Shown here: positions 38,948 to 47,844 of the stretch, in pieces | Position numbering within the stretch: position 1 is the first letter of the stretch | Layout of the letters: each line of letters begins with the position of its first letter | DNA from: Maritimibacter sp. | Lineage (GTDB): Bacteria > Pseudomonadota > Alphaproteobacteria > Rhodobacterales > Rhodobacteraceae | Assembly: GCA_017792445.1 (NCBI GenBank) | Contig: CP051232.1 | Coordinates: 248,001 to 312,000, forward strand | Reading direction: 5' to 3' | Length of the DNA stretch: 64,000 bases | Notes under the pieces: model-generated | What the model was told of the DNA's origin: nothing | The model's database searches: none | Seen by the model: the letters and a program-made list of their open reading frames with translations, nothing else | Translations under genes and position numbers: made by a program

Positions 38948-39007
38948 TGTTTCAGGTTGGGGTTTTGCACGGTTCGCGCTACGCCTGACACGGTAAACGG
39001 GGGGCGC

Positions 39008-40462
39008 ATGACGAAAGCGATCATGATCCAGGGCGCGGGCTCGAACGTCGGCAAGTCGCTTGTCGTCGCGGGCTTGGCGCGGGCGCTGTTGCGACGTGGC
39101 CTGTCGGTCGCCCCCTTCAAGCCGCAGAATATGTCGAACAACGCTGCCGTCACCGTGGACGGAGGCGAGATCGGGCGCGCGCAGGCTTTGCAGGCGCGCG
39201 CGGCGGGGCGTGACGCGGTGGTGGACATGAACCCGGTGCTGCTGAAGCCCGAAACGGACACGGGCGCACAGGTGATCGTACAGGGTCAGCGCGTGGCTAC
39301 GCTGAAGGCGCGCGACTACGGCGCGATGAAGGCGCGGTTGCTGCCCTCGGTGCTTCAAAGCTTCCACCGCCTTTGCGTGGGCGCCGACATCGTGCTGGTC
39401 GAAGGCGCGGGCAGTCCGGCCGAGGTGAACCTTCGCGCCGGTGACATCGCGAACATGGGCTTCGCCGAGGCGGCGGGTGTGCCGGTTGTCCTTGTCGGCG
39501 ACATCGACCGCGGCGGCGTGATCGCGCAACTGGTCGGCACCAGCGCAGTGCTTCCGGATGCGGACCGCAATCGCATTAAAGGCTTCATGGTCAACAAGTT
39601 CCGCGGCGATGTTACACTGTTTGACGAAGGCATGAAGGCCATCGCCGACCACACCGGATGGGCGCCATTGGGTGTGCTGCCGTGGTTCCCGGACGCATGG
39701 CGGCTGCCTGCAGAGGACGTCATGGACATCCGGTCGCGCAGGGGCGGAACGCTGAAGATCGCGGTGCCCCGGCTGAACCGGATCGCCAATTTCGACGACC
39801 TCGATCCGCTGAAGGCCGAACCGGGCGTTAGCGTCGAGATCATCGAACAGGGCCGCCCCCTGCCCGGCGACGCCGCGATGGTGCTGATCCCCGGATCGAA
39901 GTCCACCATCGCCGACCTTGCCGATTTCCGCGCGCAGGGCTGGGACATCGACCTGCAAGCGCATGTGCGGCGCGGCGGTCATGTCGTGGGGCTATGTGGC
40001 GGCTATCAGATGCTGGGTTTGGAGATCGCCGATCCCGAGGGGCTGGAGGGCCCGCCGTCCCGAGTGCCGGGACTTGGTCTGCTGGACGTCACCACCGTGA
40101 TGCAACCGCGGAAGCGCCTGTCGCTGACCCGCGCCCGCGCCCTGCCCGGCGGTGAACCGGTCGAAGGCTACGAGATTCACCTCGGCCAGACCGAGGGCCC
40201 CGATTGCGCCCGTCCGTGGGTCGAGATCGACGGCCGTCCCGAGGGCGCGCAAAGCGCCGACGGTCGTGTGCGTGGATGTTACCTGCACGGCCTGTTCGCC
40301 GCCGATGCATTCCGCGGGGCCTATCTTTCCGAGTTGGGAGGCCCGGCAAGCGACACCCGGTTCGAGGCGGGCGTTGACGAGACGCTCGACGCCCTCGCCG
40401 CCCATATCGAGGCAGCGGTGGACGTCGACCGTTTGCTGGGGCTGGCGGAACCCGTGGCCTAG
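39008..40462 (+). CDS. cobQ: cobyric acid synthase
   Basis: 484-residue glutamine-dependent amidotransferase that amidates four side chains of the corrin ring in vitamin B12 synthesis. The N-terminal ATPase part opens [22 protein letters not shown] (P-loop-like GSNVGKS) with [12 protein letters not shown] and [11 protein letters not shown]; the glutamine amidotransferase part has the Cys in [16 protein letters not shown] 39008 is the fitting start. No other cob genes are adjacent and no B12-riboswitch signature was seen in the leader. Its stop overlaps by CTAG the stop of the acidic scaffold gene on the other strand. Confidence 0.97.
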
Positions 40463-41973
40463 CTGGACAGGTCCCGCAGGGCCAGCGCGCGTTCGATCTC
40501 GCGCCGGATCAGGCGGCGGACGTTGCGCGTGATCCGCTCGCCCAGCACGCCCTGAAGCTCTTCGCGGACCAGTTCGGCGACCATCTCGCGCAGCGCTTCC
40601 TCGTCAAGCACGGCTTCTTCGCCGGCGAGCACCGAGTCGTCCTGCGCATCCGGAAGGTCATCGTCGAAATCGTCGGTCTCTTCCGCGAAGGACTCGACCG
40701 TCTCGTCCGCCCCGGAATAATCGCCAAAACTGTCGGTATCCTCGAAATCTTCCCAGTCCGCGGCGGGTTCTTCCTCCACCGGTTCGGGTGCCGGACGTTC
40801 GGCCTTCGCACCCGTCCGGGCGGTGAAAAACGCGATCTCGGGCTCGGGCGCTTCGTCGGCCTCCGGCTCTGCGTCGTGCTCGGGCGCCGGTGTGGCAAGT
40901 TCCTCGTCCGCCGCTTCGTTCGCCTCTGCCTTGGCACTGTCGTCAACGTCCGCCGCGGCCTCGGTCTCTGCCGCAGCTTCGGCGGCTTCCTTCTCCTCGG
41001 CTTCGGCAAGAAACCGGTCGATCGAGGCCACGATGTCGATCTGGTCGTCCGCTTCCGACGTCTCCGCCTCTGGCGCTTCGTCGGGTTCGTCCGCGAGGGC
41101 CACAAGGTCTTCGTCGACCTCCGCCGTCTCTTCCGCAGTCTCTTCCGGTGCCTCTTCCTGCGTGGCGAGGTCTTCCGTTTCTTCCGTGGATTCAGCGAAA
41201 ATCGAGACCTCTTCAGCCTCGGCCGTTTCGGACGCCTCCTGCGCGCCGTCTGCCTCGGCGGCGGCCGCTTCCGGCTCTACCGGGTCTTCCGTCAGAAGAA
41301 ACGGCGAGGTGTCCACCGCTTCGGCCTCGTCCATGCTGGCATTCTCGGGCTCTGCGTCCGAAACCGCTTCGTCGCCGTGGCTTTCAAGGTCGGCCATGGC
41401 GGCGGCGGCAGCCTCGCGCTCCCAGTCAGCAAGGAAATCGTAATTCGCGTCGGCACTTAGCGGCCGCGTCTCGTCACTCGACCCATCCTCGCTTCCGTCC
41501 GGCTCCCACGTGCCACCGGCGCGCACCAGTGCGGCTTCCAGTCCGGCGATGCGATCTTCAAGGCTGAGGGTCGGCACAACCGCATCGGTGTTCGCCGCTT
41601 CAGGCGCGGCCTCGGCCGTCTCGGGTTCGATTGTCTCGACTTCGGCGGCCTCGGCTTCGGAAACCTCGGCTTCGGCTTCTTCAAACTCGGCTGTATCGGG
41701 TTCCGCAGGTTCCGATTCTTCCGTGGCGACAGGATTTGTCAGGTGGATGACGGACGAATTGTCCGCCTCGGCAGCCTCTGGATCGGTCCCGTTGGCGACT
41801 GTTTCCTCTTCGTCATCCGAATCGCCCACACGTTGAGCGGGTGTCAGGACAAGCCGATCCTTCGCCTCCGAAACCTCGGCACGGCGGCGCGCAGGGTGCG
41901 GTTCTTCAGAAACCAGACGCCTTATGGACGACAGGACATCTTCGATTTCAACCTTGGAAACCGGATCCGGCAT
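40459..41973 (-). CDS. very acidic PopZ-like scaffold protein
   Basis: 504-residue protein with an extremely Glu/Asp/Ala-rich middle and almost no hydrophobic segments. The ends look like PopZ, the polar organiser that binds chromosome and cell-cycle proteins in Alphaproteobacteria: N-terminal helix [17 protein letters not shown] (PopZ has a matching EEILASIRR helix), and a C-terminal helical segment (about 455-500) with [18 protein letters not shown] and [18 protein letters not shown], the type used for self-assembly. Genomic place also fits: tolC and pcm follow upstream on the same strand, as next to popZ in rhizobia. ATG 41973 has AAGGGA upstream. It is far longer than the 177-residue Caulobacter protein. 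Function is inferred from ends and synteny. Confidence 0.72.
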
Positions 41974-42050
41974 GCGCAATCCCTTTGTATACTGCTCTGG
42001 TCCAGTCTACCCAAGCGGGCGATACCAGACAACTCTTGCAGCTTTGTTGA

Positions 42051-43436
42051 TTATTTGCCGAGGCTTCTGAGCACACGATCAAGTTTTTCCCCTTGCGGAC
42101 TGACATAGGTCGTCGGGGCGTTCTTGACAGTGTTGTAATAGGCTTCGGGGTCGTAGGTCAGGATCCCGAGGTCGAGATGCTCGACCGTCAGCAGGCCCAT
42201 GGTCGCGAGCAGCGAGTAAACCGCGACGAACTGGTTGATCTCGGCCTGGATCAGCGAGGCGCGGGCATCCAGCAGGTTCTGTTCGGCATCCAGCACGTCC
42301 AGCGTCGTGCGCGCGCCAAGCGAGGCCTCTTCCCGCACCCCGTTGAACGCCACGGTGCTGGCGTTGACCTGCCGCTGACTGGCGTCCGTGCTGGCGATCG
42401 CGACGCGAAGCGCCGTCCACGCGTTGGCCACGTCCTGCTTGACCGTCACCACCGCTTGCAACAGCTCTGCGCGGTCGCCCTCGGACGCGGCAATCGCCTG
42501 CCGCAACGCCGACGCCAGCGCGCCGCCGGAATAAATCGTCTGGTTCAGCGACAGAGTGGCGGTCACGCTGTCGTTCCATTCATGGTCGACACCGGCCGAC
42601 ACGCTGCCGGTCAGGCTGGGACGCATGGCGGCGCGGGCGCGGCCGATGTTCAGCTCGGCCACCGTCACCTCGCGCTGGCGCTGATGGATCAGCGGGTGCG
42701 TCTTGACCGCGATGGCGATGGCTTCTTCCAGCGTGTTGGCCGTCATCGGCGGCACGCTGGGGCGTACGAGGTTCGTGGGATAGTCGCCGACAGCGGCCTT
42801 GTAAGCCTCGCGCGCGACGTTGTAATCGCCCTCCGCCGCGGCAAGGGCGGCGCGGGCGGCGGCCAGCGCGGCCTCGGCCTGCGACACGTCGGTGCGGGTG
42901 ACCTCGCCAACCTGAAAGCGCTGTTCCGCGGCGCGAAGTTCCGAGGTGATGACCCGCACGTTGTTGCGCCGCAGCTCGACAAAGCGGGCGGAGCGGATCA
43001 CCTCCATATAAGCGCGCACCGCGGTCAGCAGCACCTGCTGCTCGACCTGAACCAGCACGTCGCGGGTCAGCAGCACGGTCTCTTTCGCGACGTTGATCGC
43101 CAGCGGCGTACGGCCGAAATCGTAAATCGTCATCTGCGCGGTCAGCGCCAGCGACGCGGTATAATTGTCGGTCAGCGGGCGCGGATGGGCGTATCCGGCC
43201 GTCACCGCCCATTGCAGAACCGGCCGCAACGTGGCGATGGCCTGCGCCACATCCTCGTCCGCGGCGCGCAGCAGTGCGCGGTTCTGTTGCAAAAGGTTCG
43301 AGTTGTTATAGGCCGCGATCAGCGCGTCGGTCAGGGTCTCGGCGCGGGCGGCGGCGGTCGACGCGGCAAGCACGCACCCGGCGACGGCGGCCGTCAGGTA
43401 CCGCCGGAAACGGGTCGGGCCGCGCCGCGCGGTCAC
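42051..43436 (-). CDS. tolC: TolC family outer membrane protein
   Basis: 461-residue outer membrane efflux duct with an N-terminal signal (about 1-32, [20 protein letters not shown]) and two repeats of the alpha-barrel/beta-barrel pattern. Typical repeat pieces are [20 protein letters not shown] (first half) and [20 protein letters not shown] (second half). GTG 43436 overlaps the pcm stop by GTGA, so pcm and tolC are translated together. It forms part of the pcm-tolC-popZ-like block. Confidence 0.93.
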
Positions 43437-44086
43437 AGCACGAATTCCGCCGAGCGGGCGAAGCCGGGCAGGACCGGCGCACTGGCATCGAAGGCCCAGC
43501 GCCAGCTAAGCACGCCGTCGGCCTTGATCCCGATCCGGGCCTGGCACAGGGCGCCTTCGGCGAACAGCGCCCCGATGCGGCCGCCGTCCTTCAACTGATC
43601 GGCCAGCGCCTGCGGCAGCGTCTCGACCGCCCCTTCGACAAGGATCACGTCGTAGGGCCCGTGCTTCGGCGCGCCTTCGTTCAGCGGCGCGGTGACCACG
43701 GCGGCGTTGTCGGCCGAGATCTCGGACAGCAATGCCTCGGCCTCGGCGGCCAGGGTTTCATCCGCCTCGACGGCAACGACCGCTTCGGCAAGCCGCGACA
43801 CGACCGCCGTGGCGTAGCCAAGCCCGCAGCCAAGATCGAGCACAAGATCGTCGGTGTCGATCTCAAGCGCATCCAGAAGCTTTGCAAGGGTGCGCGGCGC
43901 AAGGACGGTGCGGCCGGGCGCAAGGTCGATATTGTCGTCGACATAGGCGGTGGGCCGAGCGTCATCCGGAACGAACCGTTCGCGCGGAACCTCGAGCATG
44001 GCGTCGATGATCGGATACTTGGTGACATCGGAGGGCCGGACCTGCGTATCCACCATCATCCTGCGGCGCGTTGCGTGATCGGTCAT
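43433..44086 (-). CDS. pcm: protein-L-isoaspartate O-methyltransferase family
   Basis: 217-residue SAM-dependent methyltransferase that starts repair of isoaspartyl damage in proteins. The SAM motif is [14 protein letters not shown] (about 90-103), with [29 protein letters not shown] before it as the family substrate region. ATG 44086 gives [21 protein letters not shown]. Members next to tolC in alphas are common, and it is possible that the real role is in envelope or secretion biology. It sits at the head of the pcm-tolC-popZ-like block behind a long leader. Confidence 0.9.
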
Positions 44087-44574
44087 GGAAGTGAACTCTC
44101 CGGTCTGGATTGCCAAAGTCTGATGCCACATCCGCGCGCTGTGAACAACATATCAGCTTCACCCGGCAAACAGATCCGCACGTCTGGCCCCGCCGGTGGC
44201 TTGTGGTGAGACAACTTGGTGCGGAAGGTCCGCGACCTTTGCAATTTGCCGAATGCTGAGCGGCAGCGCCCTGTTCTGGGGGTACGGCCAAACGGACCGA
44301 CCCATGGGGTGCAGGGAGGGGATACTGGCTTCCGGCGGGCAGGAGATCGCCCGTTGCCCCTGACGGTAGACCCCGCGGGGACCAAACGGCGCTAACCGAT
44401 TCGCGAGACGGCTCGGGGTGCCGCCACTGTGGGCAAAACGGGGATCGAGACCGGGACGTGTACGCTGGCTTTATATTATGTATCGCTTGCCTCCCAATGC
44501 TGGTCTTCATGCTTTCAGCCCCAGCCGGCCCGAATGACTTTGACTTCAAGCGCAGCCAAAGGCGGGCGCGTTGC
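44087..44574. other. 488-bp region without a convincing gene; possible structured leader of pcm
   Basis: No good open frame with ribosome site was found on either strand. The region is GC-rich with several short inverted repeats, such as CGGGC/GCCCG at 44336-44340 and 44349-44353 and the palindrome CCCCGCGGGG at 44371-44380. A short AT-rich patch (TTATATTATG at 44471-44480) stands out and contains a possible minus-strand promoter (see 44470-44497). If used, the transcript has a leader of about 380 nt before pcm. It matched no riboswitch consensus that I tried by eye (B12, TPP, glycine, SAM). Confidence 0.5.
44470..44497 (-). promoter_or_regulatory. putative sigma-70-type promoter toward pcm
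   Basis: On the minus strand, TTGGGA (44497-44492) and TATAAA (44475-44470) are separated by 16 bp, matching consensus -35 at 4 of 6 and -10 at 5 of 6 positions. This is an AT-rich island in GC-rich DNA. Transcription would start near 44463 and pass through about 380 nt before the pcm ATG. Confidence 0.5.
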
Positions 44575-47500
44575 TCAGAAATCGGACCAACCCTCATCGT
44601 CGTCGAATGCCTCCGCAGGATCGACCATGGCGAGGGCAGTTGCTCCTGCCGCGACCGGTTGCGCCTGCGTTGGTCGGTCATCGCCCCCTTCCCGACGCCG
44701 CTCCGATGTCGAGGGCATGTCCGATGCCGGTGCGTTGGTGCCGCCTGTCTTCTTGACCTTCGGATCGGCCCCGACACCCTTCCCGGACGTATCGCTTGAC
44801 GACCCGGCGCCCGGCGGCGTCCCGCGACTGCTTCCCGGCCCGGCGACAGCGGCAGTGCGCGGCGCCCCGCCCTGCCCCGCGGTTTGCGTTGGATGCACCC
44901 GCACGACATTGGAGTCGCCCGTGCGGAACTTTGCCATCGCCTGCGTCAACAGATCCGCCTCGCGGGTAAGCGCGTGTCCGGCAGCCGTCGCCTCTTCGAA
45001 CATCGCGGCGTTCTGCTGCGTCACCTGATCCAGTTCGCCGACCGCAGCGTTGATCTCTGCCAGGCCTGTGCTTTGCGACTGCGAGGAGGTCGCGATCTCG
45101 GCCACATGGCGCGACATCTCGACCACGCCCGTCACGATGCTTTTCAGGGCATCGCCGGCCTGCCCGACCAGATCGACGCCGCGCTTGACCTGACGCCCAG
45201 AGCTCGAGATCAGTTCGTTGATCTCCCGCGCGGCGTCGGACGACCGTTGCGCCAGGGCGCGCACTTCGGAGGCGACGACCGCGAAACCACGGCCAGCCTC
45301 GCCGGCCCGCGCGGCCTCGACGCCCGCGTTCAGCGCCAGAAGGTTGGTCTGGTAGGAGATATCGTCGATAACCTCGGTAATGCGCGAAATCTGCTTCGAC
45401 GAGGCAGAGATCTCGCCCATCGCATCCACTGCCTCGCGCACGATCTCGCCAGATGTCTCGGCGTTCTCGCGGGCCGAGTTGACGATGCGGTTCGCTTCCG
45501 CAGCCCCTTCCGCCGCCTGTTTGACGGAATGCGTAAGCTGGTCTAGCGCCGCTGCGGTTTCTTCCAGCGTTGCTGCCTGCCGCTCTGTCCGTTGAGACAT
45601 GTCGTCGGCCGCGGAGGAGATCTCTGCCGCGCCGCCGCGGATTTCTTCGGAATTGGCGGCGACCCCTTCGATGGTCGTCGCAAGCTGGTGCGCGGCCGCA
45701 TTGAAATCTGTGCGCAGGCTTTCGTAGGCTTCGGCGAAGGCTTCTTCGATACGGACCGACAGGTCGCCGTGGGCCAGCCCTCCCAGCGCGGCACGCAGCC
45801 GCTCGACGACCTGCGCCTGCGCCGCTTCATGTTCCGCGCGCCGACGCTCTTCTAGCTGCTCGGCGCGGCGCGCCTTGGTCACGTCGCTCGCGATCAGGAT
45901 GTAGCGCAGCAGGTCGCCGTCGCTATCGGTCACCGGGGTGATCCCGCCTTCGATCAGGACAGGGTCGTCACCCTGTTTGCGCAGTCGAAACAGCCCGAAC
46001 ACGGGCTCTCCGGCGCGTAGCCGTGACGACAGTGCGGCGTCGTCTTCGTCCTCCGCGGTCAGCCATTCCTGGATCTCGCGGCCGACGAATTCGGTCTCGG
46101 GCTGCCCCATCACAGTGCAGAAGGTCTCGTTCACCGCTTTCAGCGTGCCGCCCGGCAGGAATTCGGCGCGCAGTTGATAGCCGTCGATCGACTCCAACAC
46201 CGCTTTGCTGAGGAAACCGTCGGTCACGTCCTTCAGTTCGATGACATAACCAAGCCCGTTTCCGGCATCGTCCGTGACGCGACCGATAGACAACACCAGT
46301 CGCATGTCCCCAAGCGGCATGCCGAGTGACGCCGGCAGCATGTTCCCTTCCGCCATCAGCGCTTCGACCCGTCCCGCGACGTCCTTGGGCAGCACATGCC
46401 CTACGGGCGTCCCGCGAACGTCGCCGCCTTGAAATTCCGGGTTCAGGGTGGACAGCGCACCGGCCTGTTCTTCGAACAGCTTCCGGATGGCACGGTTGGC
46501 GTGCAGGATCTTTCCGTCGAGGCCAAGCATCATGATCGGTGCGGTGCTGGCGGAAAAGGCCGCGCCACGGAACCGGCTGGCAATTCGGTCGGCTTCCGCG
46601 GCTTTCAACTGTTCGCGGAACCGCTCCAGCCGGCGCGCGATGCGGCCGATTTCGTCGCCGCGACCGGCATCCGCGACCTCGGCATCCAGGTCACCGTCCG
46701 CGATCTGGGCGATCGCACCGGTGACGCGGTGCAACGGCCGGGACAGGGAACTAGAAACCAGAGCCGCAATCACCGCGCCAAGCGCGATGGTCCCAAGGCC
46801 AACCACAAGCAGCATCCATCGAAGGTCCGAAACCGCGCCAAGCGCTTCCGCCTCGTCGACCGAGATGATACCGGCCCATGTTGCGCCGAAGAACGTAACC
46901 GGCTGATAGGCTTGCAGTACGGCGACGCCATCGGCGGTGACCGTCCGGTCGGTGCCGGACTCGCCGGACAGGGCGGCACGCACGGCGGTGGTTTCCGCTG
47001 CTGCCGTCAACATCGTCGGCGTGTCCGCGAACCGCCTGTTCGACCGGAACAACCCATCCTCGCCGACAAGGAAGAAATCGCCTGTCTCGCCCAACCCGCG
47101 GACCTGGGCGGCCAGTTCGTGCAGATAGGTTTCGGGAAGCTGGTAGGCGATCACGCCGACACGCTCGCCCCGTGCAAAGACCGGCTGGGCGAGGAACGCC
47201 GCCGGTGCGCCGCTGCTTGGGCCATAGGCGGCAAAATCCTCGAACGCCTGCTGCCCTTCCTCCAGTTCCATCGCGCGCCGATAAGCCCTGGCCAGACCCG
47301 TGTCGCTGTAGGGACCGTCAAGCATGCTGGTGCCGAAATCGTCCTCTTTCACAACGGTGTAAAGAAGGTTTCCCGCGGCATCGAAAAGGAAGATGTCGTA
47401 ATACCCGAACTCGCGCAGATGCTCGGCGAACACCGGATGCGCCGTCGCGTGGATCGCGGAGTACTGCGATTTGTCGTCAGCCTGCGTGAAGTCAGCGCGG

Positions 47501-47844
47501 GCCGCACCTTCGTACGGATTGTCCTGCACATACAGTTGCCGCAACGAAGCCGCGGGGTCGCCCTCGTACGCTGTCCACGCGGTCGCCATGCCACGAAGTG
47601 TGCGGATCGTGATCGAATCGCCTGCTGAACGCGACAGTTCATCCGCCAATTGTTCGAAATGGGTGATTGTGGCTGCGACTTCAGCCTCCAGCACGCTGCT
47701 GAGCCGATGCGCGACCTCTTCCGTCAGCGCATCTTCTTCCAGCCGTTCGGCGAACTGGCCGAAGACGATGACGACGAGCGCCATAAGGAACAGCATGATC
47801 GCCGGGAGCTTGTACCTGATGCGGATGTTGTTGAGCAGCTTCAC
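44575..47844 (-). CDS. methyl-accepting chemotaxis protein with HAMP, two PAS domains and CheR/CheB tether
   Basis: 1089-residue chemoreceptor. Two membrane helices (about 12-30 and 341-365) flank a large periplasmic sensor (31-340). HAMP (about 366-418), two PAS-like domains (about 430-545 and 560-655), a second HAMP-like segment (about 675-725) and the signalling hairpin follow, whose tip has [19 protein letters not shown] (about 833-851). The extreme C-terminus is GWSDF, matching the xWxxF peptide that tethers CheR and CheB to receptors. A low-complexity linker (about 985-1080) separates the tip from it. GTG 47844 follows AAGGAGA. No other che genes are in this window. The ligand is unknown. 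Confidence 0.94.

Follow-up and report, generated by a model that had tools for sequence, protein, structure and literature searches.

The closest described relative of the protein considered here is the polar organiser PopZ of Caulobacter crescentus (PF10691, NF052660, PDB 6XRY), which has 177 residues, 78 of them in the linker (PMC9512792). In Caulobacter PopZ, E12K/R19E loses ParB binding and S22P loses ParA binding (PMC10120649, PMC5182065); neither the three named client mutations nor C-terminal residue names were found in the accessible part of PMC10127582. Longer PopZ linkers are reported to have less charge (PMC9512792). An orthologue was also studied outside Caulobacter, in Magnetospirillum gryphiswaldense (PMC6414705), and the accessible text of that paper describes Rhodobacter sphaeroides as lacking PopZ, with no mention of the form presented below. 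Many Rhodobacterales are said to have no conspicuous PopZ (PMC5182065). Here we analyse a 64,000-nucleotide stretch of Maritimibacter sp. (Rhodobacteraceae; assembly GCA_017792445.1, contig CP051232.1, positions 248,001 to 312,000), hereafter the window, in which the product of one gene is very probably a strongly modified, lengthened PopZ. We refer to it as divergent PopZ. Within the text accessible to us, no description of this family form was found in the literature on PopZ in Rhodobacter, Rhodobacterales or Roseobacter or on DUF2497, and a literature search for PopZ with Roseobacter returned nothing.

The open reading frame (ORF; 40459-41979, minus strand) lies directly after pcm and tolC and is intact. 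A first-pass annotation of the window had proposed a strongly acidic product of 504 residues with a low-complexity middle, almost three times as long as Caulobacter PopZ, and this is what the ORF encodes: Asp and Glu make up 32% of the full-length protein, its net charge is -132, and its length compares with the 177 residues given in PMC9512792. The 504 residues are counted from the ATG at 41973, which has an AAAGGGA stretch just 5' of it. We preferred this start over a TTG at 41979, 6 bases further 5', because the TTG directly abuts the AAAGGGA stretch.

Both ends of the protein share ancestry with PopZ. In hhalign comparisons between 53 divergent and 31 canonical distinct sequences, the N-terminal helix aligned with a probability of 97.4% (best of 100 column shuffles, 26.9%) and the C-terminal helix pair with 95.1% over 44 ungapped columns (best of 100 column shuffles, 12.5%). 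Two C-terminal profiles, built from 24 family and 26 canonical C-termini, were also run on the 8664 ORFs of the fetched loci, a pool that is target-enriched by construction, with about one target per locus. The top 80 matches of the canonical profile outside its own set were all divergent PopZ; it found all 86 divergent ORFs (57 distinct) at a median of 12.4 bits, the best other ORF reaching 5.0. The reverse search was noisier: canonical ORFs took 29 of the top 30 and 45 of the top 50 places and 52 of 53 (34 distinct) were found, with the best other ORF, at 8.7 bits, above the target median of 8.4. The claim that the protein has PopZ-like end motifs, and that a sensitive profile search would match its C-terminal segment to PopZ, is borne out by these comparisons, even though both curated cut-offs are missed. 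A different popZ elsewhere in the genome, which would have undone the proposal, was found neither with DUF2497 at E 1e-3 nor with PopZ_fam at E ≤ 1; the two PopZ_fam matches at that threshold both fall on this ORF (E 3.3e-5 for the N-terminal and 0.003 for the C-terminal part). The divergent profile made three further matches in the same genome, at E 0.37-7.7. Judged from sequence, the gene is almost certainly orthologous to popZ.

The wider survey covered 149 genomes of the family, one per genus, and 142 of the class. Among the latter were this genome and a second family member, neither of which had DUF2497 over its cut-off. The divergent profile matched 61 of the 142 class genomes at E ≤ 10, mostly in short stretches attributable to chance. 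Two of its matches outside the family fell below E 1e-3 and nine spanned at least 35 columns; all nine, including those two, sit at DUF2497 places.

The N-terminal helix would be the client-binding segment by homology to PopZ. Its residues include E11, D12, V13, L14, S16, I17, R18, R19 and S22, and the ten-letter motif singled out in the first-pass annotation corresponds to residues 10-19; the C-terminal segment quoted there was likewise correct. When the first 50 residues were searched against 177,635 sequences of the Protein Data Bank (PDB), the sole match to E 10 was 6XRY, Caulobacter PopZ (E 0.14), with query residues 3-35 lying ungapped on its residues 3-35. The positions at which Caulobacter PopZ contacts its clients (12, 19 and 22) are occupied by D12 (Glu12 in Caulobacter), R19 and S22. 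Conservation was counted in the 53 sequences above and in 76 of 80 relatives, retained because a looser form of the N-terminal motif could be placed in them; these 80 are the best of at least 522 confirmed matches and lean to close relatives. R19 is kept in 49/53 and 73/76 sequences and S22 in 43/53 and 72/76. The strict N-terminal motif occurs in 76/76 relatives and in no shuffled copy, a count that is partly by construction, given how the 76 were selected. Positions 11-18 were partly set by the search pattern, and their conservation is not independent evidence.

At the other end, the helix pair is taken as the oligomerisation domain, again by homology to PopZ. AlphaFold2 with 53 aligned sequences (mean pLDDT 57, pTM 0.23) predicted helices at residues 7-22, 458-474 and 476-503, the remainder being mostly of low confidence, so that the structure prediction suggested for both ends yields a helix at one and a helix pair at the other. 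The two C-terminal helices have opposite net charges, -4 for 458-474 and +4 for 476-503. Across 96 distinct divergent sequences the medians were -3 (-4 to 0) and +5 (0 to 6), compared with +1 (-2 to 2) and 0 (-4 to 3) in 31 canonical sequences; the ranges overlap, and the sequences are related, so that p-values overstate their independence. The motif ELQGx[LM]GE[RK]IT is present in 72/76 relatives and in none of the shuffled copies. Searched against PDB sequences, the divergent C-terminal profile returned only ribosomal eS1 (E 1.3-1.4), which is chance level.

Between the two ends lies a linker, 425 residues long by the definition used for comparing lengths, of which 33% are acidic, with a net charge of -0.30 per residue; it ranks third of 53 in length and likewise third in acidic fraction. 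Long linkers are the rule in the divergent form (129-468 residues, median 277, n = 53 from 57 distinct sequences, four having no placed N-terminal motif; 176-511 at n = 75). Canonical linkers had a median of 131 (n = 31 from 34), and 85-220 with a median of 129 when the one sequence from the same family was left out (n = 30). That sequence (L061) has the longest canonical linker, 369 residues. Beyond the N-terminal helix a box of the LVLTPxxRV type is conserved in 49/53 and 72/76 relatives. A VLELT-like pattern occurs in 2/53 divergent versus 19/31 canonical sequences, and our guess is that the LVLTPAxRV box is possibly the counterpart of canonical VLELT. A second box, IAELEAA...WEPDG, persists within a linker that is otherwise poorly conserved; its combined motif IAxLE...EPD was counted in 39/76 relatives and in no shuffled copy. 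Helices were predicted inside the linker at 138-151, 178-200 and 308-340. In one relative (G019; loci L029 and L125) the linker contains many imperfect EEPLILSD/DPLILxD repeats, and valS still lies directly downstream.

The position of the gene is that of popZ. The order pcm-tolC-popZ, given in the first-pass annotation for other Alphaproteobacteria, was present in 18 of 20 canonical loci chosen from the class DUF2497 matches, the exceptions being one contig end and one locus without a tolC match; in 5 of the 20, where the script pattern had missed popZ, the DUF2497 match supplied its position. The corresponding order with the divergent gene, all on one strand, holds in 20/20 family loci, chosen from 31 genomes matched by search, and in 68 of the 69 loci of the 80-locus set that are named and have at least 4.5 kb of upstream sequence. 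Downstream, valS follows on the same strand in 16/20 canonical loci; it is directly downstream in 2/20 family loci (L124 and L125, pcm-tolC-X-valS) and in 0/80 of the larger set. A convergent cobQ is found in 61/80 and 8/20 relatives. In the window the stops of cobQ and of the divergent gene share one palindromic CTAG (40459-40462), leaving no intergenic space. Among the matches listed, the closest named relatives by C-terminus are a Maritimibacter metagenome-assembled genome and Psychromarinibacter sediminicola. Just upstream of pcm, an ORF of 1089 residues (44575-47844, minus strand) resembles, by eye, a chemotaxis receptor that combines PAS-like with methyl-accepting parts.

Table 1. Coordinates, within the window, of the divergent PopZ gene, its parts and its neighbours.
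Feature	Coordinates	Strand	Basis or remark
Divergent PopZ gene, 504 aa from ATG	40459..41973	-	ORF and profile matches
N-terminal helix, residues 7-22	41908..41955	-	hhalign 97%; AlphaFold2 helix 7-22; PDB 6XRY match
LVLTPAxRV box, residues 41-49	41827..41853	-	conserved in relatives
Acidic, mostly disordered linker, about residues 50-456	40606..41826	-	charge; mostly low pLDDT
Conserved linker box IAELEAA...WEPDG, 23 letters, residues 137-159	41497..41565	-	motif count; AlphaFold2 helix 138-151
C-terminal helix pair, residues 458-474 and 476-503	40465..40602	-	AlphaFold2; hhalign 95%; charges
tolC, TolC-family outer-membrane protein, conserved neighbour	42051..43436	-	PF02321; TIGR01844 256 bits
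pcm, protein-L-isoaspartate O-methyltransferase family, conserved neighbour	43433..44131 (alternative ATG 44086)	-	PF01135
cobQ, convergent	38957..40462	+	stop overlaps popZ stop

Divergent PopZ is a family-wide form and no isolated oddity. DUF2497 scored over its cut-off in 113/142 class genomes versus 4/149 family genomes, and the divergent profile at E 1e-3 matched 131/149 family genomes, a count that includes the genomes supplying profile rows and about a dozen much weaker matches (E 1e-14 to 4e-6). At E 1e-3 DUF2497 matched 16/149 family genomes; in 13 of these the match coincides in position with the divergent gene, and the other 3 have no divergent gene. The scarcity of DUF2497 matches can explain reports of Rhodobacterales without a conspicuous PopZ.

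Eighteen of the 149 family genomes had no divergent match, and three of these carry a canonical-type PopZ (G012, G021 and G199). The pcm place was inspected in 12 of the remaining 15, the other three giving only weak pcm matches. In two of the 12 (L232 and L240) tolC abuts the convergent cobQ, the two matches lying about 90 bases apart, which we read as clean loss of the gene. In three (L230, L243 and L244) there is an ORF of 123-133 residues that matches the C-terminal segment weakly, with scores of 14.5, 9.7 and 6-8 bits against 6.9 for an unrelated ORF. These short ORFs retain a portion of that segment at best and are possible remnants. Two others have short ORFs without a convincing match, one ends at a contig end, and the remaining four showed nothing PopZ-like among the ORFs of at least 90 residues starting near the tolC end on the same strand.

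A candidate partner is encoded at 964 kb of the same genome (L229, G000:C1:964208). Counted from stop to stop, this ORF has 341 residues. A CPNC...CSNCGHGW zinc ribbon lies near its start, its middle is acidic, and a hydrophobic stretch is found close to the C-terminus; we tentatively label the ORF ZitP-like. It scored 22.6 bits against the Pfam zinc-ribbon model, under the cut-off of 29.3, and the same model also matches several genomes outside Alphaproteobacteria. The ribbon was present in 32/32 chosen genomes with the divergent gene (32 of the 131), in 10/15 without it (two of them weak) and in 2/3 with a canonical-type PopZ. The co-occurrence (Fisher p 0.002) is confounded by closeness to the query and by kinship. 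The ZitP-like protein would be a likely membrane partner of divergent PopZ.

Compared with Caulobacter PopZ, divergent PopZ has the same N-terminal helix, with an acidic residue at 12, R19 and S22 at identical numbers, an acidic disordered linker and a terminal C-terminal helix-turn-helix; it also shares the pcm-tolC neighbours of canonical PopZ, as seen in loci of genomes other than Caulobacter. It differs in length (504 versus 177 residues) and in its linker (425 versus 78; PMC9512792), in a 15-residue segment that replaces LRPMLxEWLDxNLP, in a C-terminal pair of which one helix is acidic and the other basic, in the WEPDG box, in the absence of an adjacent valS, and in scoring under the curated cut-offs of both PopZ family models. 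The new features are the 425-residue linker, the IAELEAA...WEPDG box and the division of the oligomerisation domain between one acidic and one basic helix. Rhodobacter is absent from the main text of PMC9512792, whose supplement on alphaproteobacterial linker lengths may already count such sequences. The canonical-type PopZ ORFs of the same family, of 493 (G199), 937 (G012) and 633 (G021) residues from stop to stop, also follow pcm and are also long, and lie between tolC and valS in G012 and G021, G199 having no tolC match; they differ from the divergent form in having the canonical C-terminal end and scoring over the DUF2497 cut-off. The G012 ORF (L241, 3339-6150, minus strand) is the longest PopZ-type ORF among those examined.

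How might such a protein work? It is probable, by analogy with PopZ, that divergent PopZ is a polar hub that forms by condensation and captures clients at its N-terminus. The C-terminal helix pair would self-associate into a condensate at the pole, the acidic 425-residue linker would repel itself and keep that condensate loose, and the N-terminal helix would hold clients, chiefly ParA and ParB and hence the chromosome origin. The opposite charges of the two C-terminal helices may lead to electrostatic helix pairing; because the helices are oppositely charged, such pairing would probably supply the cohesion demanded by a long repulsive linker. We propose charge-paired oligomerisation itself only tentatively. 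The conserved helix-plus-WEPDG box may give a second docking site, a suggestion made with the same reserve.

Several results weigh against reading the gene as a PopZ with the role of PopZ. DUF2497 gave 15.8 bits for the whole protein (cut-off 27), rising to 20.7 bits (E 6e-4), still below the cut-off, for the isolated C-terminal 56 residues, and PopZ_fam (NF052660) gave 27.6 bits (E 5.9e-6; cut-off 125); because the scores fall under the curated cut-off, we class the gene as a divergent PopZ orthologue and not as a DUF2497 member. At E 1e-3 DUF2497 matched nothing in this genome while detecting the Caulobacter control, so the curated model offered no basis for homology. No ORF passed both C-terminal profiles at E 1e-4, and the cross-profile ranking and the hhalign comparison with shuffles were used in place of that test. 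Five of the ten best outside-family matches of the divergent profile lie off DUF2497 places, with spans of 17-26 columns, and the canonical signature LRPML.EWLD.NLP is replaced. The valS part of the proposed synteny fails here, as valS lies at 3.60 Mb and the gene at 0.29 Mb on the 4.68 Mb contig. A long linker with a high acidic fraction runs counter to the length and charge trend reported in PMC9512792; no such trend exists among 53 divergent relatives (rho 0.17, p 0.23), and in the canonical set it is the opposite of that reported (rho 0.49, n = 31; 0.51, n = 30 without the same-family sequence), perhaps owing to a differing definition of the linker. The gene has disappeared or become smaller in some members and is therefore not indispensable across the family.

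Missed cut-offs and a low-complexity middle that cannot be aligned could mean that an unrelated acidic helical protein took the place of popZ and came to resemble it at its ends by convergence. This is very improbable: two separate segments in the same order are both matched by profiles, with shuffles far below; each C-terminal profile puts the ORFs of the other group first among the 8664; residues 3-35 lie ungapped on 6XRY; and DUF2497 itself detects the divergent gene in 13 family genomes. Descent from popZ would also fit a protein that no longer acts as a polar hub and serves another task, such as a diffuse or envelope-linked scaffold tied to the neighbouring tolC and pcm. The rewritten oligomerisation signature, the three members with only short, weakly matching ORFs and the two in which tolC stands against cobQ would suit such a change, as would the suggestion in PMC5182065 that ZitP has been recruited for different functions or partners in Rhodobacterales. 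We nevertheless consider it unlikely, given that the aligned relatives hardly vary in the N-terminal client helix, that the layout of linker and helix pair is retained, and that a ZitP-like zinc ribbon accompanies the gene in every one of the 32 chosen genomes.

A milder alternative, compatible with a polar hub, is an ordinary PopZ in which only the linker has expanded, the charge split and the WEPDG box being neutral drift. The 369-residue linker of the same-family canonical-type PopZ (L061) is in keeping with this, as is the presence of the combined box in only 39/76 relatives. Drift accounts less readily for a charge split common to 96 distinct relatives (-3/+5 versus +1/0 in 31 canonical sequences), overlapping ranges and shared ancestry notwithstanding, or for a box maintained amid a poorly conserved linker. 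We regard it as rather unlikely, if less so than loss of the hub role. Returning to the divergent PopZ as an altered but working hub, there is about an even chance that the Rhodobacteraceae as a group never lost PopZ and instead carry a re-engineered form, in which oligomerisation by pairing of acidic and basic helices is balanced against a linker several times the length of that in Caulobacter PopZ; an additional docking box of helical structure and a ZitP that diverged alongside would complete it. The 937-residue PopZ ORF, the divergent form, the short remnants and the clean losses would then make up a natural series at one chromosomal place.

If divergent PopZ is the polar hub proposed here, a great part of this large marine and model group kept its polar organiser at the usual place throughout, and divergent PopZ would be a candidate answer to the puzzle of the partnerless ZitP in Rhodobacterales. 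The long charged linkers, together with the rewired helix pair, would let nature's own variants test the push-pull rule proposed from Caulobacter for the material state of condensates (PMC9512792).

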